33,104 nt of DNA from the NCBI RefSeq assembly GCF_900129315.1, contig NZ_FQUS01000030.1:1-33104 (forward strand), read 5' to 3'. Each line of letters begins with the position of its first letter. The stretch's first letter is position 1. The position numbers and the translations under genes are program-made. Below, piece by piece: positions 21,150 through 31,512 of the stretch. The notes under the pieces were generated by a model. The model ran no database searches. It saw only the letters and a program-made list of their open reading frames with translations, and had not been told where the DNA came from. The stretch is from Fodinibius roseus (GTDB taxonomy: Bacteria; Bacteroidota; Rhodothermia; Balneolales; Balneolaceae).

Positions 21150-22166
21150 CTACTCCTCCTCGGCAGTAATTTCATTGAGTTCATCATTATTTCTGACTTC
21201 TGCTACATCTTCTGCGGTAATAGTTGGAGCATCATTTCCCCAGCTGGTTCTTTCATGATTAATTACCGCAGCAACTTCTTCATCTGATAATGTCTGTTCA
21301 AATGGCTGCATAATTCCGCTATAATTTTCACCCTCAATTGGCACGCCCTGCATACCGTAGAGCACAGCACGAATATGATCGGTCGGATCCTCATCCGTAA
21401 CTACAGGATCACCCACTAATGAAGGGAAAGCTCCCTGAACTCCCTCCCCATTATTTTGATGGCACGAAGCACAATTATTAGAATAGATAGATGCCCCATC
21501 AATCGTTTTTTTCTGACTTTCTGATATTTCTTTGCTGGTTTCTTCATTAGAAACTGAACTTGCAGGAGCGTCCATAGGTACTTGTTTGAGTGATTGTAGA
21601 TAAGCAACTAATGCCTCTGCCTTTTCTGTTGCTACAAGTTGTCCTTGCTCAGGAGCATAATCTTCCGGCATGGAAACTACAGTCTCATCGGATCCGGGGC
21701 TCTTCTTTACCTCAAAAAGCCAGGGGTATGACGGCATAATAGATTCTTCAACAACAGACCGGGGATTATATAAATGCATATAATGCCAAACAGCACTCGG
21801 TTGGCGCTCTCCAACATTACTCAAATCCGGACCTGTTCGCTCACTACCTAAAACTGCTGGCGTTTGACGCCATATATCCTGCCTGTCAATACGAGCATAG
21901 TCGCCTGGTGCTGAAGGACGGCCCCAGTTTTCATCCATCTCTATAGGTCGTACTTGTTGTGTATGACAATAAACACATCCTTCACCGATAAACACATTAA
22001 GACCTTTTCGTTCTATATCGGTCATTGGCTCACTTGCCGGAAGAGGCTCATTTTCTCTTTGTACCCACAAAGCGGGAAGTACTGAAATAATCAAACTCAG
22101 GAAAATAAACCCCCAAAAAATAGTACCAAACAGCAGCTTATGATTTTTGTGAAAGTCAAACTTCAT
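21150..22166 (-). CDS. ccoO: CcoO-like cytochrome c subunit with an extra C-terminal cytochrome c domain
   Basis: A 338-residue membrane-anchored cytochrome. Residues 1-35 give a membrane helix. The CcoO domain has CVYCHTQQVRPI (haem site 64-68), GRPSAPGDY, RTGPDLSNVG and a Met ligand in IMPSYPWLF. Canonical CcoO ends near residue 210. Here an acidic linker leads to a second domain with CASCH at 232-236, then GVQGAFPSLVGDPVVTDEDP and VAAVINHERTSWGNDAPT. This extra domain is nearly the same as the cytochrome domain of the neighbouring CcoP-like protein, pointing to a duplication within the operon. Both haem motifs are intact. Confidence 0.88.
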   Translation of the reverse strand: MKFDFHKNHKLLFGTIFWGFIFLSLIISVLPALWVQRENEPLPASEPMTDIERKGLNVFIGEGCVYCHTQQVRPIEMDENWGRPSAPGDYARIDRQDIWRQTPAVLGSERTGPDLSNVGERQPSAVWHYMHLYNPRSVVEESIMPSYPWLFEVKKSPGSDETVVSMPEDYAPEQGQLVATEKAEALVAYLQSLKQVPMDAPASSVSNEETSKEISESQKKTIDGASIYSNNCASCHQNNGEGVQGAFPSLVGDPVVTDEDPTDHIRAVLYGMQGVPIEGENYSGIMQPFEQTLSDEEVAAVINHERTSWGNDAPTITAEDVAEVRNNDELNEITAEEE

Positions 22167-22178
22167 TGTATATCAAAT

Positions 22179-23609
22179 TTAAGATTGAGAAACTTGTGTT
22201 AGCTTTTCCCATGTTGAGGGACGCATTTTCCAAACGTTGTAAGCGAATATCAGATGTGACAGGAACATCATAGTACCACCAATAGCTCTCCAAACCCAGT
22301 ATGGGGTCATCAAATTAACAGACTCCATAAATGATTCTCCGGCAATCCAACTTAAACCCTGCAGGGTTCCTCCTATCATCAACGGAATGCTGTAAACGAG
22401 TATACCGATGAGGGCTAACCAGAAATGAGCTCCCACCGCCAGCTGCGGAGGCTCACTTCCCGTCAATCGAGGAATTAATCCATAGATCCCACCCCAAATT
22501 AGAAATGCTACAAATCCATACATGCTCATATGGGAATGGGCGATCGTAAAGTTTGTAAAGTGCCATACTTTATTAAGGGATCGAAAAGCTTCAAGGGTAC
22601 CCTGATAAGACACAATAGCGTAAAATATTACGCCAACAAGTATAAATGGTAACGAATAGCTTCGAGCAAAGGAACGCCAACTACCCTTCATTGTAAGAAG
22701 AAAGTTTCCTGTACCTGCAGTTACAGGTACGATCATTCCAACGCTAAAAACAATAGCAACTGTTTGAATCCACCAAGGGATGGGACTAAATACAAAGTGG
22801 TGTGATCCAATCATGGTGTAAAAAATCATCTGAGTCCAGAATGCTAACACTCCCAGAGAGTATGAATATATCGGCTTGTTAAGCAGCTTCGGAAGGAAAT
22901 AGTAAGTGAGCCCTAATACCATGGGCGTAAACCACTGTCCAACTCCCTGGTGCATATAGTAACCCTGAATAACGGTTTGGCTAATACCATCCTTTTGGTA
23001 ACCCGGTAGATATGCGATACTTACTAATATGATCGTCCATAAACAGGCTGCAAGGATATACCAATTGGAAATATAAATCTCTGTTACCTTTCTATCCGCT
23101 ATTGTTTTATATAGGTTGTAGGCTACCAATATGAGCCCCCCTGCAAATAATGCAAAGATAGGCCAGATTATTTCTCTGTACTCCTGGCCGCCATTATTTA
23201 TACCCATCATTAAGCTTATAACTCCAAAGAGAACTGAGATATTCATCAATCCCAGGCTTGTCCATCCCAGTCGGTAGCTATAGAGTTCGCGTTGGCTTGT
23301 ACGTGGAACGACATAAAGGGCAAGGGCAATCATCGCCTGCGATAGAAATCCCCAAAACAGCACATTAGTGTGAACCGGCCGCAACCTTCCAAAAGAAAGC
23401 CAGGAAACGGAATCTAATTCCGGCCAAACAAATTTAAATCCTACATATTCACCGACAAGCGTTCCAAAAACCAACCAGAAGGCAGATAGAGCTACAAATG
23501 AGAAGATAAGCCTAATCGACTCTAAAGAAGTATCTATTCGTTCTCCCACCTTTGATTTTTCAACCGTCAGTGGTCGTTGTTCAGATAGTACAGCTGATTT
23601 TTTTTCCAT
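22179..23609 (-). CDS. ccoN: cbb3-type cytochrome c oxidase catalytic subunit CcoN
   Basis: A 476-residue, 12-helix haem-copper oxidase subunit. The low-spin haem ligands are His80 (RLRPVHTN) and His360. His358 in FTIAHSH ligates the high-spin haem. The CuB ligands are His220 (GYYMHQGVG) and His270-His271 (GSHHF). Tyr264, six residues before the HH pair, matches the cross-linked Tyr of cbb3 enzymes and argues for an O2 reductase rather than a NO reductase. The FTNFTIAHSH block differs from the proteobacterial HYTDWTIGHVH, so this belongs to a divergent branch. It starts the ccoNOQP cluster. Confidence 0.9.
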   Translation of the reverse strand: MEKKSAVLSEQRPLTVEKSKVGERIDTSLESIRLIFSFVALSAFWLVFGTLVGEYVGFKFVWPELDSVSWLSFGRLRPVHTNVLFWGFLSQAMIALALYVVPRTSQRELYSYRLGWTSLGLMNISVLFGVISLMMGINNGGQEYREIIWPIFALFAGGLILVAYNLYKTIADRKVTEIYISNWYILAACLWTIILVSIAYLPGYQKDGISQTVIQGYYMHQGVGQWFTPMVLGLTYYFLPKLLNKPIYSYSLGVLAFWTQMIFYTMIGSHHFVFSPIPWWIQTVAIVFSVGMIVPVTAGTGNFLLTMKGSWRSFARSYSLPFILVGVIFYAIVSYQGTLEAFRSLNKVWHFTNFTIAHSHMSMYGFVAFLIWGGIYGLIPRLTGSEPPQLAVGAHFWLALIGILVYSIPLMIGGTLQGLSWIAGESFMESVNLMTPYWVWRAIGGTMMFLSHLIFAYNVWKMRPSTWEKLTQVSQS

Positions 23610-23686
23610 TCTTATATTGAATTGAAATCTTACTTGTTAAATAAATTTTGTTAGTAGTTTTAATTGTAACTCATGTAACCTGATTA

Positions 23687-23983
23687 TTACTTCATTTTTT
23701 TCTCTAACTTTTGCAGGAAACTATTGATAGTTTTTATTGGTAAATCGGACTGAGGGCGATCTTTCATAAATGACAATCCAGTTGACGCGGATATCTCACT
23801 TATACCTTCTTTTTGTACGATATGTAGATATAATAGCTCAACCTTTCCAATATCAATACTTAATAAGCCTATGCCTCTTCTTTCCCCAATTTTATACAGT
23901 CCATCCTTTTCAACCACATCATCCACAAGTTCAAATAACTGTTCATTCGAGATGTGATACTTACGCTTAATTGGGGTTGCCAT
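23687..23983 (-). CDS. Hypothetical 98-residue protein upstream of ccoN
   Basis: A small soluble protein, 77 bases before ccoN on the same strand. It is mostly alpha/beta in appearance, with a charged C-terminal helix (INSFLQKLEKKMK), no cysteine and no membrane segment. I recognise no family. The coding pattern is reasonable. Its place between the Fe-S/DUF2249 genes and the oxidase suggests it belongs to the same regulon. Confidence 0.5.
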   Translation of the reverse strand: MATPIKRKYHISNEQLFELVDDVVEKDGLYKIGERRGIGLLSIDIGKVELLYLHIVQKEGISEISASTGLSFMKDRPQSDLPIKTINSFLQKLEKKMK

Positions 23984-24091
23984 CAGGTCTGATCATATCA
24001 AATTTTTGTGACATTTCAATGAAAATCTGTCTTTTTACTGTAATACTTTCGTCCTTGCTATTCTCAACAAATAATCGAGTTAAAATACCCA

Positions 24092-24380
24092 TTAGAATAG
24101 AATGAAAGCCACCGAGATCACCCAATGCAAATCAAATAATTTTAGCTTTATGTATTTGTTCATTAAATCCAATGTTTTCTCGTTCTGTAATTGTAGATAT
24201 CGACGCATAGGATAGCCCGGAGTCGTAGCCGTTAATCCCACAATCACCCTGCCATCGTCACACAGGATGTTGTAGGCCAAACCAAGGTCTACGACGTTTA
24301 CACCGAGCCTGGCGTCAATTATCTCTCAAAGCTTCCGGGCTATCTTGCGCCGATCTATGGAAGTAGAATCTATAATTCAT
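24092..24380 (-). pseudogene. DUF59/MIP18-type Fe-S assembly protein, frameshifted
   Basis: The minus-strand ATG at 24380 follows the DUF2249 stop after 3 bases and reads to SPEALRDN, then stops. A shift inside a GA-rich stretch (24321-24327) restores EIIDARLGVNVVDLGLAYNI and then GLTATTPGYPMRRYL, a clear DUF59 domain (family consensus: alRevIDPElGvNivDLGLvY). A two-base loss in GAGAGA would explain the break. The conserved Cys of the usual TTPGCP is Tyr here, and the C-terminus degenerates. Both point to a decayed gene rather than a sequencing slip. DUF59 proteins act in Fe-S cluster maturation. Confidence 0.75.
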
Positions 24381-24383
24381 TAC

Positions 24384-24623
24384 TCAGCATTTTTTACCGA
24401 TTTGCACTTTCCAAACCTCCGGTCCTTTCTCCAGATAGTCCCAACTAAATTTTCCCTTGCCATGAATGGCAGCCATTTGATAGCGGAGTGGTTTAGGATC
24501 GTGATCATTGATAATGATAAATTTTTCTCCTACTTCAAGAGCATCATACGTATCAAAAATAGTAGAGTGCTTTTTATGAGGTGCTATTTTTCGTACATCC
24601 AATTGTTTTATTGTATCGTCCAT
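24384..24623 (-). CDS. DUF2249 protein
   Basis: A 79-residue protein with the DUF2249 pattern: LDVRKIAPHKKHSTIFDTYD, then LEVGEKFIIINDHDPKPLRY, then GKFSWDYLEKGPEVWKVQIGK. The family is often found beside hemerythrin-like, Fe-S assembly and nitric-oxide-related genes, as here, but has no proven activity. It lies between fdxA and the broken DUF59 gene in one operon. Confidence 0.88.
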   Translation of the reverse strand: MDDTIKQLDVRKIAPHKKHSTIFDTYDALEVGEKFIIINDHDPKPLRYQMAAIHGKGKFSWDYLEKGPEVWKVQIGKKC

Positions 24624-24657
24624 TATCTTGTTTTTTGATTTTTCTTAAAGTGTTAAA

Positions 24658-25017
24658 TCATTTAATAGATTCAGATACATTGTCCCAACTCTCAATCAAG
24701 TGCTCGCGCTTGTTTTCGCGGCCGCTCCATTCATCTACTTCCGGAAGGGCATCCTTTGCCTCATTTATCACATGGTCGGCCCACTCTTCAGACAGCCGCT
24801 CGTTTAGCTCGATATAATCTACCCACTCCATAGGTACTTCATCATCAGGATAAATGGCTTCCTCGGGACATTCGGCCACACATGCATCACAATCAATGCA
24901 TTCAAAGGGATCAATCACTAAAAAATTTGGCCCTTCTCGAAAGGCATCTACAGGACAAACAGCAGCACAGTTTGTGTGCTTACACTGAATACATGGATCG
25001 GTTACGACATAAGCCAT
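24658..25017 (-). CDS. fdxA: FdxA-type 7Fe ferredoxin
   Basis: A 119-residue [3Fe-4S][4Fe-4S] ferredoxin resembling Azotobacter FdI over its full length. The cluster ligands lie in CIQCKHTNCAAVCP (Cys9, 17, 21; Cys12 also present) and ECIDCDACVAECP (Cys40, 43, 46, 50). In FdI the residue after VD is a free Cys next to a cluster; here it is Ala (VDAF), which should not remove a ligand. The long C-terminal region (EWVDYIELNERLSEEWADH) is typical of FdxA. It heads the minus-strand operon and is transcribed from a promoter next to the shared operator. Confidence 0.92.
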   Translation of the reverse strand: MAYVVTDPCIQCKHTNCAAVCPVDAFREGPNFLVIDPFECIDCDACVAECPEEAIYPDDEVPMEWVDYIELNERLSEEWADHVINEAKDALPEVDEWSGRENKREHLIESWDNVSESIK

Positions 25018-25053
25018 AATTACTCATAATTGGTGCTTTTCTTAATTTCATTT

Positions 25054-25084
25054 CAAAGGTATGAGTAGCTAAAATTAATTTCAA
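25054..25084 (-). promoter_or_regulatory. Promoter of fdxA
   Basis: Minus-strand TTG (25084-25082), 20 bases, then TACCTTTG (25061-25054), a full match to TTG/TAnnTTTG. Confidence 0.6.
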
Positions 25085-25086
25085 CT

Positions 25087-25112
25087 ATAAAATCGGTTTT
25101 TACCGATTTTAT
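25087..25112. promoter_or_regulatory. Perfect 11-bp inverted repeat, candidate shared operator
   Basis: ATAAAATCGGT (25087-25097), spacer TTTT, and ACCGATTTTAT (25102-25112). It lies directly between the -33 elements of the divergent fdxA and RIC-like promoters, only 2 bases from one and touching the other. The likely binder is the SufR-like regulator encoded at 25961, or another dimeric Fe-S or NO sensor. Confidence 0.65.
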
Positions 25113-25142
25113 TGACTAATTACATTAATATGTCTATTTTCT
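25112..25142 (+). promoter_or_regulatory. Promoter of the RIC-like operon
   Basis: TTG (25112-25114), 20 bases, then TATTTTCT (25135-25142), two mismatches from TAnnTTTG. A mirror image of the fdxA promoter around the inverted repeat. Confidence 0.45.
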
Positions 25143-25178
25143 AACTGCTGAGCTGATAACACAAAAAGATAGATTATT

Positions 25179-25931
25179 ATGAGTAACAGCCAATCACTCA
25201 AAGGTCTTACAGCCGATGCTACAATCGGGCAAATTGTAAGTGCTGAAAAAAACGCAGGAGAACTGCTTTCCTCTATTGGCTTATCACCTAACAATCACGA
25301 ATCCGAAACCCTGCGATCGGTATGCCAACAAAAGAAATGGAGTGAAGTAGAAGTCTTAAAATGGCTAAAGAAGAACCAACAGAATAATGGCGCACCAAAA
25401 GGAGTAGAGGATGAGGAAGAACCACCAGACTTTGGAAAAAACTTACAGAAGTGGTGTAAGTATCTGGAACGACATTTTCTGACAAGAAATACTGAACTAC
25501 TTGATGATATTAACCGAGATTTTCCCCGAGTCCACAAAATACATGGCAACCAATACAACTGGTTAAAAAATATGCATTGGTATCTTGACAAACTGGAGGA
25601 AAAATTAAACTACTACTTCTATTTCCAACGTCATAAACTATTTCCCCTTCTTGAGATCTTAAAAGACTCAAATAAGAATGTATTACATGGTACCATCAAA
25701 AAGGTAAATAACGGAATTGAAATTATTGAGGAAGATCAAAGTACTATTTTAGAGTTAATTGACACCATTGAGGAAAAGGGACAGGGGTTAAAAAATCCAG
25801 AATGCACATGTTCAACACTTCGTATTCTTAATTATAATTTTAGAACACTATTTTCTTCGCTGAGAAAACAAATAGCCATAGAACGGGAACACCTTATCCC
25901 ATTGGTAAAACAAAAATTAAAATCGGGATAA
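25179..25931 (+). CDS. RIC/ScdA/YtfE-like hemerythrin-family protein lacking most diiron ligands
   Basis: A 250-residue protein with an N-terminal ScdA_N-like segment (ATIGQIVSAEKNAGELLSSI, residues 15-34) and a hemerythrin-like helical bundle (about 88-245). Compared with RIC, His99 (YLERHF) and His119 or His122 remain. The second-helix His-x3-Glu before FP is Tyr146 and Gln150, the EHD histidine is Gln187, and the last His is Gln231 (Glu235 kept). The N-terminal Cys pair of ScdA_N is also absent. This implies no normal diiron site, so Fe-S repair chemistry like RIC's is unlikely. It may be a regulatory or structural paralogue. The alignment was made by eye. Confidence 0.75.
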   Translation: MSNSQSLKGLTADATIGQIVSAEKNAGELLSSIGLSPNNHESETLRSVCQQKKWSEVEVLKWLKKNQQNNGAPKGVEDEEEPPDFGKNLQKWCKYLERHFLTRNTELLDDINRDFPRVHKIHGNQYNWLKNMHWYLDKLEEKLNYYFYFQRHKLFPLLEILKDSNKNVLHGTIKKVNNGIEIIEEDQSTILELIDTIEEKGQGLKNPECTCSTLRILNYNFRTLFSSLRKQIAIEREHLIPLVKQKLKSG

Positions 25932-25960
25932 CCTGACCATTCATATTAAATCCTACTGTT

Positions 25961-26593
25961 ATGTTTACAGGATCAAAAGAAAAACTACTAGAACTTATTA
26001 AGAGGAAAGGTACCATCTCAATAGATGAGGCGGTTAAAAATACCGACTTAGCGAAAACAACTCTTCGAGAACATTTTCTGCAACTGGAACGAGACGGATA
26101 TATAGAGCGCGATTATATACGCTCTGGACCAGGCCGGCCAAGCCTTGAATACCAACTTACCCAAAAGGGAAATAGCCTATTCCCTTCCTATGAATCAGCT
26201 CTCATCAAGGAATTACTTAGTTTTTTAAAGTCAAAAGATGATGATGAAACGATAAAAAAATTCTTCAGAACTTTTTGGGAAGGTCGAATTGAAAAGGCCC
26301 AACACCGTATGGATCAATCCTCAGAAACTGACTTCGATACAAGGGTTGAGGCTTTAGAACATATGTTGGAAGAAGAAGGATTCATGCCCGAAATTAATAT
26401 GGATGAGGAAAGCGAAACCCTCACCATTAAAGAGTGTAATTGTCCATTCAGTGAAGTGGTCAAAGAAACCAGACTTCCTTGCAAACTTGAAGCCATGTTT
26501 TACAAGAAGCTCTTTAATGATAAAGCTGAACGAACCACCCATATTGCCGAAGGAGATTACTCTTGCACTTATAATATCCCAACCAATGAATAA
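25961..26593 (+). CDS. SufR-like Fe-S-cluster transcription regulator
   Basis: A 210-residue regulator. A winged helix occupies about 1-70 (ISIDEAVKNTDLAKTTLREHF, then SGPGRPSLEYQLTQKG, typical of SufR and ArsR-like relatives). The C-terminal domain has Cys159-x-Cys161-Pro-Phe, Cys174 and Cys202 (in EGDYSCTYNI), the layout of SufR-type cluster ligands, plus His194. In SufR a 4Fe-4S cluster controls binding, so NO, oxygen or iron status could be sensed. It is 29 bases behind the RIC-like gene and is the natural candidate to act at the operator at 25087. Confidence 0.85.
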   Translation: MFTGSKEKLLELIKRKGTISIDEAVKNTDLAKTTLREHFLQLERDGYIERDYIRSGPGRPSLEYQLTQKGNSLFPSYESALIKELLSFLKSKDDDETIKKFFRTFWEGRIEKAQHRMDQSSETDFDTRVEALEHMLEEEGFMPEINMDEESETLTIKECNCPFSEVVKETRLPCKLEAMFYKKLFNDKAERTTHIAEGDYSCTYNIPTNE

Positions 26594-26646
26594 ATTTTAT
26601 TACATCATATCCCTAATATTTCCATAAACCTGTAAAGGTGATAACC

Positions 26647-28044
26647 ATGATTGTACATGACCTAGCAAAATTTGTAACCAATGCAACATATAATGATTTA
26701 TCTGATGAGGCAGTTAAGCAGCTTAAAATAAGACTGCTGGATTCCTTAGGAACAGCTATTGGGGCTATTGAGGGGCCGCCTGTTCAATCCATTCGAAAAA
26801 TGATAGACGATTATCTGGGCGGATCGCAATTATCTACTTTAATAGGAGGAGAAAAAACAACCCCTGAGCGCGCCGCTCTTTACAATAGTGCCCTGGTACG
26901 ATATCTCGATTTCAATGACAGCTATTTAGCTAAGGGAGAAACCTGTCACCCCAGCGATAATATTGGCTCTATTCTAGCGGCCGGAGAAACAACTGATCTT
27001 AGCGGAAAAGATTTTCTGACAACTTCGGCTGTTGCCTACCAGATTCAGTGTCGACTAAGTGATGAAGCCCCGGTGCGCGACAAAGGATTCGATCACACCA
27101 CCCAGGGTTCCTATGCCGTAGCAGCAGGCGTATCGAAAGCATTTGGACTCGACGAAGAAAAAACAGCCAATGCCATTGCTATCGCAGGTACCGCGCTGAA
27201 TGCTCTTCGAGTAACTCGAACCGGAGCCCTTTCTAACTGGAAAGGACTGGCATATCCTCACACTGCTTTTGGCGGGACCCATGCGGCTCTTCTGGCAAAA
27301 CACGGAATCACTGGTCCACCTGCTGTTTTTGAAGGTAATAAAGGATTTATGGATTCCATTGCCGGAAAGTTTTCTATTGACTGGTCCGCCGAAAACCTTG
27401 AACGCGTGACTGATACCGTTATCAAAAAGTACAACGCCGAGATTCATTCCCAATCCTCCATCGAAGGGATCATTGAACTGAAGGATAACCACGGTTTTTC
27501 AGCTGATGAGGTAGAAAAGATAGAGATCGATATCTTCGACGTGGCATATCATATAATCGGCGGAGGTGAAGAAGGGGACAAAACCATTGTTCGAACGAAA
27601 GAAGAGGCTGACCATAGTCTTCAATATATGGTTTCTGCTGCCCTTCTTGATGGAGAAGTGATGCCCAAACAGTATCGAAAAAAACGCATTGAAGCTGATG
27701 ATATCCAGTCACTGCTCCAAAAGGTACAGGTATCTCCCAAAAAAGAATACAGTGACCGATTCCCTGATGAAATGCCAACAAAGCTAACAGTACATCTCAA
27801 GAATGGAGTAACACACGAGATTGAAAAACGTGATTATGAAGGTTTCCATACCCGACCTATGAGCTGGGACACTGTTATTCAAAAGTTTGAAGGATTGGCT
27901 AAGCCTTATACCTCGCAAGAACTTCGTGAAGAAATAATAGATCACGTAACCAATTTTGAAAATTATAAAGTAACAGATTTAATGAATCTACTAAAAGATG
28001 TAGAAATTGTTTCTCTAACCACAATCCCCACGATGAATAATTAA
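26647..28044 (+). CDS. MmgE/PrpD-family dehydratase or epimerase
   Basis: A 465-residue protein of the MmgE/PrpD superfamily, which includes 2-methylcitrate dehydratase, cis-aconitate decarboxylase and iminodisuccinate epimerase. I prefer the ATG at 26647 because AAAGGTG lies just before it. Recognised blocks are RLLDSLGTAIGAIEGPP, RYLDFNDSY, HPSDNIGSILAAGE, DHTTQGSYAVAAGVSKAFGL and ADHSLQYMVSAALLDGE. The exact reaction cannot be read from family alone. It is 53 bases from the SufR-like gene and 13 bases from comA, so it belongs with ComA in one transcript. Confidence 0.85.
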   Translation: MIVHDLAKFVTNATYNDLSDEAVKQLKIRLLDSLGTAIGAIEGPPVQSIRKMIDDYLGGSQLSTLIGGEKTTPERAALYNSALVRYLDFNDSYLAKGETCHPSDNIGSILAAGETTDLSGKDFLTTSAVAYQIQCRLSDEAPVRDKGFDHTTQGSYAVAAGVSKAFGLDEEKTANAIAIAGTALNALRVTRTGALSNWKGLAYPHTAFGGTHAALLAKHGITGPPAVFEGNKGFMDSIAGKFSIDWSAENLERVTDTVIKKYNAEIHSQSSIEGIIELKDNHGFSADEVEKIEIDIFDVAYHIIGGGEEGDKTIVRTKEEADHSLQYMVSAALLDGEVMPKQYRKKRIEADDIQSLLQKVQVSPKKEYSDRFPDEMPTKLTVHLKNGVTHEIEKRDYEGFHTRPMSWDTVIQKFEGLAKPYTSQELREEIIDHVTNFENYKVTDLMNLLKDVEIVSLTTIPTMNN

Positions 28045-28057
28045 AGGAAGTTTTACT

Positions 28058-28882
28058 ATGAGTGAAGAAAAAACATTCAATTTCCTAAACAAAAACGAAC
28101 GAGAACCAAAACCCCGAACTACAGGCGTAACAGAAATTCGCGGTCCTTACTATGCTGTAATGGGCAAGCGATACCTGCAGGATATCATGGAAACGATGGG
28201 CGAACATGTTGATTCGCTTAAGTTTTCGGGAGGATCATTCTCCATCATGCCCAAACCGGCCGTACAAGAGCTGATTGATATTGCTCATGATCATGATGCG
28301 CTGGTATCCACCGGCGGATTTATGGAGTACGTCCTGACGCAGGGCAAAGACGCCGTCAATCAATATATCAATACCTGCAAAGATTACGGTTTTGATATCA
28401 TTGAGCTCTCGGCCGGATTCATCACCCTGCCCACCGACGACTGGCTTCGTCTGATCGAAAAGGTGCAGGAAGCCGGACTTAAAGCCAAGCCCGAAATTGG
28501 CATTCAGTTTGGCGCCGGCGGAGACACGGCCCAAGGAGAGCTGGAATCGGAAGGTACGCTCGATACCAGTTATGCAGTCAAGCAAGCCAAGCGGTTTGTA
28601 GATGCCGGAGCCTATATGATCATGATTGAGTCGGAAGGCATTACTGAAAACGCCGACCCGTGGAGAACTGATGTCCCGGCTGCATTTATCAACGAAATCG
28701 GCCTGGAAAAGCTGATGTTTGAAGCAGCCGATCCGGAAGTTTTCGCCTGGTACATCAAAAACTATGGTCCGGAGGTGAACATGTTCGTGGACCATAGTCA
28801 AATTGTGCAGCTCGAAACGCTGCGTCGCGGAATCTGGGGAACCAAAAGCCTTTGGGGACGGGTCCTGACCTATAAAAATTAA
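28058..28882 (+). CDS. comA: ComA-family phosphosulfolactate synthase
   Basis: A 274-residue TIM-barrel enzyme of the ComA family, which joins sulfite to phosphoenolpyruvate to give (2R)-3-phosphosulfolactate. Signature blocks are VDSLKFSGGSFSIMP, STGGFMEYVL, GFDIIELSAGFITLP, LKAKPEIGIQFGAGGD, MIMIESEGITE and VDHSQIVQLETLRRGIWG. The known alternative for this fold is the HSA32-like heat-stress protein. An AAAGGAAG precedes the ATG. Partners for a complete coenzyme M or sulfolactate route (ComB, ComC) are not in the window. Confidence 0.88.
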   Translation: MSEEKTFNFLNKNEREPKPRTTGVTEIRGPYYAVMGKRYLQDIMETMGEHVDSLKFSGGSFSIMPKPAVQELIDIAHDHDALVSTGGFMEYVLTQGKDAVNQYINTCKDYGFDIIELSAGFITLPTDDWLRLIEKVQEAGLKAKPEIGIQFGAGGDTAQGELESEGTLDTSYAVKQAKRFVDAGAYMIMIESEGITENADPWRTDVPAAFINEIGLEKLMFEAADPEVFAWYIKNYGPEVNMFVDHSQIVQLETLRRGIWGTKSLWGRVLTYKN

Positions 28883-28935
28883 ACTACCCTCAAAATTAGC
28901 TTAATATCTTTGATGTATTAAGTCATATCCATGCG

Positions 28936-28972
28936 GAGCTGGTCAGGATAATCCCTGGTCAGCTCATTTAAT
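28936..28972 (+). terminator. Terminator of the RIC-like/SufR/PrpD/ComA operon
   Basis: GAGCTGGTCAGG (28936-28947) pairs with CCTGGTCAGCTC (28954-28965) with two G-U pairs and a 6-base loop, then ATTTAATA. Confidence 0.75.
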
Positions 28973-28997
28973 ATTTAACCTAAATACACATAAAACT

Positions 28998-29342
28998 ATG
29001 AGTAACAATAATTCTGTTTTTCCACCCGCAACACCAATAATGTCACAAAAACGAGCTGACCTTGCACCTGAGCAGGTCGAAGCCTTTCGAAATTTCAGTA
29101 AGGCTGTATTTAAAGAAGGCGCTCTAGATGAAAAAACAAAACAGCTGATCGCCGTGGCTTCGGCTCATATCACCCAGTGCCCCTATTGCATAAAAGGACA
29201 TACCAAGCAGGCGAAGCAAAAGGGCGCAACTAATGAAGAGATTATGGAAGCAATTTGGGTTGCAGCAGAAATGAGAGCCGGTGGTTCTTATGCGCATGCA
29301 GCTTTGGCTATAGATGAAATCGAAAAAATAGACGGATTATAA
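28998..29342 (+). CDS. AhpD-like carboxymuconolactone decarboxylase-family protein
   Basis: A 114-residue alkylhydroperoxidase-fold protein. The redox site is visible as HITQCPYCIKGHTKQAKQKG (CxxC with a nearby His), which fits the AhpD CxxCxxxH motif. Members reduce peroxides through a thiol relay. It begins a four- or five-gene plus-strand cluster with a second AhpD-like protein and NDH-2. The natural reductant is unknown. Confidence 0.88.
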   Translation: MSNNNSVFPPATPIMSQKRADLAPEQVEAFRNFSKAVFKEGALDEKTKQLIAVASAHITQCPYCIKGHTKQAKQKGATNEEIMEAIWVAAEMRAGGSYAHAALAIDEIEKIDGL

Positions 29343-29353
29343 TATACACGATT

Positions 29354-29815
29354 ATGGAACAACGAATTAATTATCAGGAAATAGCACCAAAATCATTAGA
29401 AGGTATGTATGAGATTGAAAAGTATGTCGCGAATTCACAATTGGAAGATTCATTAATTCAATTAGTAAAACTGCGAGCATCTCAAATTAATGGTTGCGCA
29501 TATTGTATCGACATGCATACCAAAGACGCACGACAGGCAGGGGAAAGCGAACAACGATTATATACCCTAAGCGTGTGGAAAGAATCTCCTTTCTACACAG
29601 ATCGTGAACGCGCTGCCTTACGGTGGACCGAGGCACTTACAAAGATTTCAGCAAATGACGTTTCAGATGAACTCTATGAGTCTGTTCGCAAACACTTTGC
29701 CGAGGCTGAGCTAACGGCGCTTACTATGGCGATCATTGCCATCAATGGCTGGAACCGATTGGCTATAAGTTTTCGAAATGTTCCCGGAAGCTATAAACCC
29801 GAACTTGCTAAATAA
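29354..29815 (+). CDS. Second AhpD-family (CMD) peroxidase-like protein
   Basis: A 153-residue protein, 11 bases behind the first. The site is INGCAYCIDMHTKDARQAGE (CxxCxxxH) and the later ERAALRWTEALTKIS is typical of this subfamily. It diverges enough from its neighbour to be a separate family branch rather than a recent duplicate. A probable peroxide or organic hydroperoxide reductase. Confidence 0.88.
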   Translation: MEQRINYQEIAPKSLEGMYEIEKYVANSQLEDSLIQLVKLRASQINGCAYCIDMHTKDARQAGESEQRLYTLSVWKESPFYTDRERAALRWTEALTKISANDVSDELYESVRKHFAEAELTALTMAIIAINGWNRLAISFRNVPGSYKPELAK

Positions 29816-29834
29816 TGAATTTTAGCTACTTATT

Positions 29835-31175
29835 ATGAAGAACAAAAAACAACATGTTGTCATTGTTGGTGGTGGATTTGGTGGAATATCTGCTGCTAAA
29901 CAACTTAAAAAAGCCGATGTGGATGTTACACTTATAGATAAGTCAAATCACCACCTGTTCCAGCCGTTGCTGTACCAAGTGGCCACTGCGGCTCTTTCGC
30001 CGGGTGATATTGCAGCCCCTATCCGAGCCATTATCGGTGAGCAACCAGGTATGCACATATTGCTGGGAGAGGTGACAGACATTCATCCCGAGAAAAAGAG
30101 TCTTGAGCTGGCCGACGGGCGCACAATCTCGTATGATAAGCTTATCATGGCTCCAGGCGCCCAGTACAACTACTTTGGCAATAATAAATGGAAGGAGCAC
30201 GCCACAGGACTAAAATCCATTGCTGATGCCCTGGATACTCGCGAACGCATCCTTCTTTCACTTGAGGAGGCTGAGCAGATTAATGATCCCAAATTGCGTG
30301 AGCCTTATCTGACCTACGTGATCATCGGGGGTGGACCTACCGGCGTGGAAATGGCGGGAGCAATTGCCGAGATCGCCAAACGCAATATGATGCGTGACTA
30401 CAAGAATATCAGCAAAAACGAAACACGCATCTTTCTAGTCGAGGCTGGTCCCAAGATCCTGAACGGCTATCCGGAGGAGCTCTCCGAACGTGCTCGTCAA
30501 ATGCTGGAAGATATGGGGGTTCGCGTGCTACTCAACACACCAGTTACTAATATAGAAGAGAATGCTGTTCAGTTTAGCGAAGGAACCATTAATACACCTA
30601 ATATCATTTGGGCTGCAGGCGTTGTAGCATCACCATTATTAGATACGTTAAATGTGGAGCAAGATCGTACCGGCCGGGTAAAAGTAAATGGCAATCTGAG
30701 CGTGCCCGAATATCCAAATATATTTGTCATCGGCGATGCGGCCCATGTTAAAGGTGAAGACGGAAGTCCGCTTCCCGCCCTGGCACCGGTAGCTATGCAG
30801 CAAGGTAAATTTCTCGGGCAACTTCTTAAAAAGGCCCCTTCCAAAATAAATGATACTCCTACATTCCATTATAAGGATAAAGGAACTATGGCAACCATCG
30901 GTCGAGCTAAAGCCGTAGCTGATATTAAAGGTTTTAAATTTAGTGGTTTCCCCGCCTGGTTTATGTGGTCGTTTGTTCACATTCTGCAATTAATGTGCTT
31001 CCATAATAAAACGCGCGTTTTCCTTGAGTGGATATGGTACTATTTTACATTTAAGCGTGGGGTTCGCCTGATTACTGATCGCCTTGAATGTAAACATTGT
31101 AGCGAAAATGAAGCTTTATCAAACCTAAAAACCGACCATCCAGAGTATGACCTCTCAAAAAATAACCATAACTAA
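29835..31175 (+). CDS. ndh: Type II NADH:quinone oxidoreductase (NDH-2)
   Basis: A 446-residue FAD protein that passes electrons from NADH to quinone without pumping protons. The FAD-binding site is VVIVGGGFGGISAAKQL (residues 8-24), the NADH-binding site is YVIIGGGPTGVEMAGAIAEI, and a second FAD block is PNIFVIGDAAHV. The quinone-site-like APVAMQQGKF is present. The hydrophobic C-terminal region (FPAWFMWSFVHILQLMCF) is the usual membrane attachment. It would feed quinol to oxidases such as those of this chromosome. Confidence 0.92.
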   Translation: MKNKKQHVVIVGGGFGGISAAKQLKKADVDVTLIDKSNHHLFQPLLYQVATAALSPGDIAAPIRAIIGEQPGMHILLGEVTDIHPEKKSLELADGRTISYDKLIMAPGAQYNYFGNNKWKEHATGLKSIADALDTRERILLSLEEAEQINDPKLREPYLTYVIIGGGPTGVEMAGAIAEIAKRNMMRDYKNISKNETRIFLVEAGPKILNGYPEELSERARQMLEDMGVRVLLNTPVTNIEENAVQFSEGTINTPNIIWAAGVVASPLLDTLNVEQDRTGRVKVNGNLSVPEYPNIFVIGDAAHVKGEDGSPLPALAPVAMQQGKFLGQLLKKAPSKINDTPTFHYKDKGTMATIGRAKAVADIKGFKFSGFPAWFMWSFVHILQLMCFHNKTRVFLEWIWYYFTFKRGVRLITDRLECKHCSENEALSNLKTDHPEYDLSKNNHN

Positions 31176-31188
31176 AAATAACAGGATC

Positions 31189-31512
31189 ATGATAAAATAT
31201 ATATCTGGATTCGCACTAGGAATAATGCTGCTTGTAGCTAGCACTGCATTCATAACTGCCCAGGATAGTGATACAACCGATACCACAAAACAAGATGAGC
31301 TTTCGCTTATTACTGAAACGCCTGAAGAAGGTTTTCAGGTGGCGGTACAACTGGCCAGAAAAGGGGTAACTACAACGCAGCCCGACAAGGATGTACTGTT
31401 TATGCTGCGGGATGTCTATTCTAAAGACCCGGACGCGCTTATTGCCAGTTCCCACGTTGTCGCGGTACACTACCAAACGGTAGCGGCAGCTAATAATTAT
31501 TGGCGCGAATAA
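31189..31512 (+). CDS. Small exported protein, unknown
   Basis: A 107-residue protein starting at 31189, with AGGA before the ATG and a signal peptide ending near AFITAQ. The start at 31147 would overlap ndh and put extra polar residues before the signal, so I reject it. The mature part is acidic at first, then helical. I recognise no family. It is 13 bases after ndh and 16 before the sdhC fragment. Confidence 0.6.
   Translation: MIKYISGFALGIMLLVASTAFITAQDSDTTDTTKQDELSLITETPEEGFQVAVQLARKGVTTTQPDKDVLFMLRDVYSKDPDALIASSHVVAVHYQTVAAANNYWRE

Follow-up and report, generated by a model that had tools for sequence, protein, structure and literature searches.

A conserved prpD-2–comA-2 gene pair next to a putative Fe-S/NO-stress unit in Fodinibius roseus

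The closest described relatives of the proteins considered here are the RIC proteins YtfE and ScdA, the iron–sulfur (Fe-S) regulator SufR, the 2-methylcitrate dehydratases of the MmgE/PrpD family, and the phosphosulfolactate synthase ComA (PF02679). HSA32, a heat-stress-memory protein, is presented as phosphosulfolactate synthase-related in the title of one reference. Genes for relatives of the first four lie side by side in F. roseus, on contig NZ_FQUS01000030.1; the window analyzed here is this entire 33-kb contig, from a genome of 5.08 Mb. The original prediction treated the four genes as a single unit and as a candidate undescribed system. Comparison with related loci reveals, with high confidence, two separate modules rather than one four-gene system, and the best overall explanation is on balance a ric–sufR stress unit lying back to back with a prpD-2–comA-2 enzyme pair. 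The four genes are as follows:

25179..25931, + strand: ric-like gene, encoding a degenerate RIC of the YtfE/ScdA fold (open reading frame (ORF) scan and profile matches)
25961..26593, + strand: gene for a SufR-like winged-helix regulator (ORF scan and profile matches)
26647..28044, + strand: prpD-2, encoding a 465-aa protein of a separate MmgE/PrpD clade (Pfam, tree)
28058..28882, + strand: comA-2, encoding a 274-aa protein of a separate ComA (PF02679) clade (Pfam, alignment, structure model)

As predicted, the ORF scan placed all four ORFs on one strand, with intergenic gaps of 29, 53 and 13 bases if PrpD-2 begins at ATG 26647. An alternative start in the ORF listing, GTG 26638, would make the sufR–prpD gap 44 bases; the ATG is favored because the upstream sequences of relatives have a common MIV- start.

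Linkage and co-occurrence of prpD-2 and comA-2

Loci containing comA-2 were collected in a genome scan (the best 80 of 184 relatives, 64–96% identical; 79 after one duplicate was dropped). In 50 of these 79 loci a full-length PrpD-2 gene precedes comA-2 on the same strand, separated from it by −23 to +197 bp in 48 of them and by 476 and 851 bp in the other two. Three further loci contained a partial, split or divergent PrpD. The same arrangement was found in 41 of the 70 loci outside Balneolaceae. Record titles of the comA-2 loci include Balneolaceae, KSB1, Armatimonadetes, Chloroflexi, Calditrichaeota, Deltaproteobacteria, Chlamydiae, Planctomycetes, Actinobacteria and Acidobacteria. Genome-wide examination of 24 of the 26 loci lacking an adjacent PrpD located a PrpD at 60–66% identity elsewhere in five genomes.

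Co-occurrence was examined in three phylum samples totaling 790 genomes, with hypergeometric p values that ignore kinship. ComA-2 was present in 6 and PrpD-2 in 2 of the 148 genomes of the phylum of F. roseus (p = 1e-3), both were present in the same 4 of 247 Acidobacteria genomes (p = 7e-9), and in the phylum of the Manganitrophus genome (395 genomes) all 4 PrpD-2 genomes were among the 12 with ComA-2 (p = 5e-7). The dependence is one-way, of PrpD-2 on ComA-2 and not the reverse, because all 10 PrpD-2 genomes carry ComA-2, while 12 of the 22 ComA-2 genomes lack PrpD-2. The two genes are unlinked in 3 of the 10 (G155, G159 and G673). The distance matrices of the two proteins are correlated (r = 0.83 for 53 loci and 0.67 for 39 thinned loci), and none of 2000 permutations gave a value as high. 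Adjacency, co-occurrence and matching divergence together suggest that PrpD-2 and ComA-2 act together, and very probably they form one functional pair.

The only recurring neighbor families of the pair were regulators (HTH_IclR, 8; LysR, 3) among 63 neighbor proteins, a chosen subset of 141, in a tally that covers 25 of 92 families; pterin genes occurred near the pair at single loci only. The variation of these regulators by lineage (IclR, LysR, and the SufR-like protein in F. roseus) suggests an inducible metabolic step, and not a fixed stress role.

A search of 72,556 plasmid records returned 30 ComA matches, of which 20 are ComA-2 (53–69% identity), from Salinibacter ruber pSR116, Methylosinus OB3b (two records), Methylocystis (one) and haloarchaea (16). 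The remaining 10 matches are 24–26% identical or a fragment. A PrpD relative is present on the same plasmid in 18 of the 20 full-length ComA-2 records, within 200 bp in 10, on the same strand at 0.7–7.2 kb in 7, and at about 34 kb in one; no PrpD was detected at E ≤ 1e-60 on the other two. A further 17 plasmid records contain PrpDs of 32–43% identity and no full-length ComA-2 on the plasmid. The prpD-2–comA-2 pair constitutes a mobile enzyme module of two genes, found in bacteria and haloarchaea. No ComA match was found in the phage collection. In pSR116 (L129, 5225–10163) the pair is flanked by DsrE-family genes on one side and a DNA-starvation (Dps-type) gene on the other. On the Halorussus pelagicus plasmid NZ_CP035120.1 (H45), ComA-2 is present only as a fragment close to a PrpD relative, in what looks like the remains of a pair.

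ComA-2 and PrpD-2 compared with their characterized relatives

ComA-2 contains a ComA domain (PF02679, 277.4 bits) and has the ComA fold. Its structure model (predicted local distance difference test score, pLDDT, 84.4) aligns with M. jannaschii ComA (1qwg) at Z 28.7 and a root-mean-square deviation of 2.0 over 241 residues. VIA-align matched further TIM barrels, among them pyruvate carboxylase and HMG-CoA lyase, at Z <16, which we read as a common fold only. The domain score, the fold with its retained acidic residues and K43, and the linkage to prpD-2 would all suit a phosphosulfolactate synthase that is genuine though divergent, and this is also the annotation in the plasmid collection (19 of the 20 plasmid ComA-2, one record being unannotated). 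PrpD-2 would then process phosphosulfolactate or sulfolactate, for example by elimination to sulfoacrylate, in a short sulfonate pathway. Phosphosulfolactate elimination occurs in bacterial coenzyme M synthesis.

The residue alignment makes this reading improbable. Among the residues that M. jannaschii ComA shares with 25/25 sequences of ComA-1, the common Bacteroidota ComA (23–29% identical to ComA-2), K137, R170/E171 and R244 are absent from 85/85 ComA-2, whereas 25/25 ComA-1 have K, R, E and R. In all 85, K137 is replaced by Q and R244 by W, and the same Q and W occur in 10/10 of the plasmid copies read. Also missing are Q211, Q212 and N227 (85/85, replaced or absent), K209 (P in 84/85, S in one) and D246 (T in 84/85, N in one). 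Most of the retained residues (D40, K43, E79, E103, S105, E133, E168, E205, N224 and R240) are acidic or structural. TIGR03849, the archaeal ComA model (cut-off 280), gave 96.1 bits for ComA-2 and 86, 101 and 102 for other ComA-2; the ComA-1 of the same genome scored 253, likewise below the cut-off. Identity to M. jannaschii ComA is 42% for this ComA-1 and 23% for ComA-2. Most of the family, F. roseus included, also encodes a ComA-1 with K137, R170 and R244. The alignment of the 85 copies led us to reject an ordinary ComA, and ComA-2 is probably not a phosphosulfolactate synthase. Because ComA-2 lacks K137, R170 and R244, the sulfite-to-phosphosulfolactate chemistry originally proposed for the unit is left without support, and a sulfonated product is not indicated, although conceivable. 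We infer that ComA-2 may use metal-assisted enolate chemistry of the same kind on a different substrate. The true-ComA-like ComA-1 (L002; G000 C23:38376–39086) adjoins glycogen-metabolism genes.

PrpD-2 contains both MmgE/PrpD domains (251 and 151 bits), and its closest solved relatives are 2-methylcitrate dehydratases. It was compared with PrpDs of five methylcitrate-type loci, four with prpB above the cut-off and five with a citrate/methylcitrate synthase. PrpD-2 shares D91, N93, D94, H104, D107, H153, K202, E268, H270, Q272 and Y330 with PrpDs of prpB loci, and differs from methylcitrate-operon PrpDs at C103, Q135, K235 and N266 and in the GGGEEGDK stretch. A quick tree places it in a clade apart (support 97), and the other-clade PrpDs in L120, L121, L125 and L127 have a prpB neighbor above the cut-off. 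No prpB or citrate synthase was detected among the 20 window proteins scanned.

The solved relatives, the retained residues, the NCBIfam model for bifunctional methylcitrate dehydratase/aconitate hydratase, which also matches PrpD-2, and the position of the gene in an Fe-S-stress locus would be consistent with either a stress-time substitute for Fe-S aconitase or a methylcitrate dehydratase, ComA-2 then having an accessory role. We regard this as unlikely: the pair lies away from Fe-S stress genes in most loci, ComA-2 frequently occurs without PrpD-2, and one genome (G159, L120) contains both PrpD-2 and a PrpD beside prpB and citrate synthase. A methylcitrate enzyme was rejected for PrpD-2 on its own clade, on the presence of both kinds in the L120 genome, and on the absence of a prpB neighbor. 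Although usually labeled as coenzyme M and propionate enzymes, the members of the pair are probably neither.

The ric–sufR unit and its predicted operator in Balneolaceae

The ric-like gene is preceded by a divergent ferredoxin gene, and three further features define the surroundings of the four genes:

24658..25017, − strand: FdxA-type ferredoxin gene, divergent from the ric-like gene (NF045490, 129.5 bits; cut-off 135)
25083..25115, + strand: putative operator/promoter element of the fdxA/ric-like unit, holding an inverted repeat (25087–25097/25102–25112)
28936..28965, + strand: terminator-like hairpin 3' of comA-2, weak and near the shuffled background

The RIC-like protein scored 19.4 bits with the Pfam hemerythrin/RIC model (cut-off 25.3) and 51.4 bits with TIGR03652 (cut-off 204.7). 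Foldseek of its AlphaFold model (pLDDT 86.5) returned YtfE and ScdA as the sole matches at E ≤ 0.001. In an 11-copy alignment the Cys-Cys motif is absent and most His ligands are replaced, judged by the Cys-Cys and di-iron His/Glu motifs that we take to define RIC; two Gracilimonas copies retain more His residues. The description of the protein as a degenerate RIC is therefore borne out. The SufR-like protein, at 74.1 bits, did not reach the SufR equivalog cut-off (178.8). Its C161, C174 and C202 are present in 11/11 aligned copies and C159 in 10/11, in what is presumably the C-terminal Fe-S Cys pattern of SufR. Its assignment as a SufR-like regulator of the Fe-S type agrees with this Cys set and with the profile match.

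Of the 10 Balneolaceae loci with both genes, 9 have fdxA next to the ric-like gene (the distance to fdxA is about 1.3 kb in L041 and L045, and L039 has no upstream sequence). The intervening region holds a perfect 11-bp inverted repeat within an element common to relatives. A scan of 12 genus genomes with the 33-base pattern, allowing up to 3 mismatches, returned 15 sites, each 832–869 bp 5' of one of 15 close sufR copies, while the reversed-pattern control returned none. No further site occurs in the 12 genomes, and there is none in G180, the sole genome without a close SufR. We infer that the SufR-like protein may bind the palindromic site at 25083–25115 as its operator.

The unit is found both with and without the enzyme pair. 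In the genus, 10 of the 15 ric-sufR units are followed by ComA-2, and 5 lack prpD-2/comA-2. Among these 5 is a second fdxA/ric-like/sufR-like unit in the F. roseus genome itself (G000 contig C18; L119, 5430–7364), followed by an NADP glutamate dehydrogenase gene. In 92 Balneolaceae genomes, tallied by hand from rows, 13 of the 16 ComA-2 copies have a close SufR-like gene on the same strand within 5 kb; the other three are at a contig edge (G228), far from it (G197), or in a genome with no close SufR (G199). This neighborhood exceeds chance within the family. It could indicate a four-gene functional system in which the RIC-like and SufR-like proteins act on or with the two enzymes, and the short gaps in F. 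roseus would fit such a system. However, ComA-2 is missing within 5 kb of 25 of the 38 close SufR-like copies, and in the 70 non-Balneolota comA-2 loci tblastn detected neither a RIC nor a SufR match (one RIC-family ORF near ComA-2, in L082, appeared in clustering). We consider the four-gene system very unlikely. As a general system it is largely refuted by the modules occurring apart, and it was rejected. The conservation expected of the neighborhood was observed in most Fodinibius-type relatives and was absent outside the family, where prpD-2–comA-2 also occurs without ric-sufR.

The hairpin of the predicted single terminator is present at 28936–28965, but its T tract is weak. Seven such sites occur in the region, compared with 4.8 (standard deviation 2.2) in shuffled sequences, and the single-terminator argument is thus weak evidence. 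Co-transcription of the four genes under the SufR-like switch in this strain is rather probable, and stress control of the unit is plausible.

Some relatives have genes for DUF2249, a Cu-oxidase (NirK-like in our reading), SCO1, a Crp-type regulator or nadA close to the ric-sufR unit, neighbors that fit a nitrosative-stress island. In Gracilimonas, nadA (quinolinate synthase; L041, 5977–6912) lies 3' of the sufR-like gene, and in Fodinibius sediminis metE (L038, 10898–13234) lies immediately 3' of comA-2. One Aliifodinibius metagenome-assembled genome contains the whole ric-sufR-prpD-2-comA-2 locus in two copies (L042 and L046). In the window, an apparent DUF59/SufT-like gene remnant was seen by eye at 24092–24360 (− strand), between DUF2249 and a cytochrome oxidase-like gene; an intact relative is at L119, 5098–5433 (− strand). 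The region 3' of the unit (28998–31509, + strand) encodes two CMD/AhpD-type proteins, an NDH-2-type dehydrogenase and a hexameric tyrosine-coordinated heme protein. An RNA family search of 22000–31000 gave no match. PADLOC gave no match for the RIC-like protein, PrpD-2 or ComA-2, and weak Csa3/CARF matches for the SufR-like protein.

Proposed role and comparison with known systems

In the explanation that we favor, fdxA, the ric-like and sufR-like genes and the palindromic site between fdxA and ric would form a locally controlled unit responding to Fe-S or nitric oxide (NO) stress. In Balneolaceae, the prpD-2–comA-2 pair would have been captured behind this unit, and would be made upon Fe-S cluster damage. 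For the chemistry we offer only a tentative proposal: PrpD-2, without an Fe-S cluster, would take water from, or add water to, a hydroxy-carboxylate, and ComA-2, assisted by a metal, would catalyze an addition or elimination of the enolate type on that unsaturated carboxylate. As a hydro-lyase free of Fe-S, PrpD-2 would remain active during Fe-S damage.

Several points weigh against this reading. The best 80 of 184 loci are skewed toward close relatives. In 19 of the 24 genomes examined for a non-adjacent PrpD, there is no PrpD above 38% identity anywhere, which implies that ComA-2 works without PrpD-2 in many genomes. The 63 neighbor proteins include no recurrent third enzyme that would indicate the substrate. 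The NCBIfam PrpD scores of PrpD-2 (153, 150 and 126 bits, against cut-offs of 950, 575 and 458) give no separation, because two PrpDs from prpB loci are also below the cut-offs, which were dropped as a discriminator. The PrpD tree is a quick version with a long-branch warning. The haloarchaeal PrpDs are 42–47% identical to the window PrpD-2, have Y at the H270 position and differ at C103, Q135 and N266, so that they can be placed in the PrpD-2 clade only tentatively. For K137, R170 and R244, the roles are deduced from conservation. Finally, the distance from the sufR-like gene to prpD-2 is 95–135 bp in some relatives, where a separate prpD-2 promoter is possible.

The idea of an undescribed system is supported, with the two-gene module in place of the four genes. 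No paper in the open-access collection searched combines "phosphosulfolactate synthase" with "PrpD" or "MmgE", and further literature searches returned nothing relevant; an earlier description elsewhere is possible. A provisional plant HSA32 sequence, which we treat as a lead and not a test, is 42% identical to ComA-2 and 22% identical to ComA-1; its peptides were not found in the open-access papers searched. It is conceivable, though doubtful, that ComA-2 is the microbial counterpart of HSA32 and that prpD-2–comA-2 is an undescribed stress-metabolism module of bacteria and archaea, extending, as ComA-2 alone, to land plants. If so, the ComA-2 substrate would assign a biochemical function to plant HSA32, and the genes of plants, bacteria and haloarchaea that now carry the phosphosulfolactate synthase label would have to be renamed.

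The sequence evidence makes the phosphosulfolactate synthase and MmgE/PrpD labels of this conserved pair doubtful, and coenzyme M or sulfonate synthesis deduced from the ComA-2 label in pathway reconstructions may be wrong. The pair offers an experimentally accessible entry point, in bacteria and haloarchaea, to a two-step reaction and perhaps to plant HSA32, and the occurrence of PrpD-2 only with ComA-2 indicates which enzyme to study first.

Comparison with the known systems shows likeness in fold and difference in detail. The RIC-like protein has the two-part fold of YtfE/ScdA, but lacks the Cys-Cys motif and most His ligands, and scores 51 bits against a cut-off of 205. The SufR-like protein has the winged helix and C-terminal Cys set of SufR (74 bits), but is below 178.8, and its gene adjoins fdxA/ric rather than a suf operon and has its own putative local operator. 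PrpD-2 has both domains and the methylcitrate-operon residues of the 2-methylcitrate dehydratases (5mux, 1szq), but forms its own clade and is partnered by ComA-2 rather than prpB/prpC. ComA-2 has the TIM barrel of ComA (PF02679; 1qwg, 1u83) and ten of its core residues, but is 23% identical to the M. jannaschii enzyme and has lost the basic residues K137, R170 and R244.

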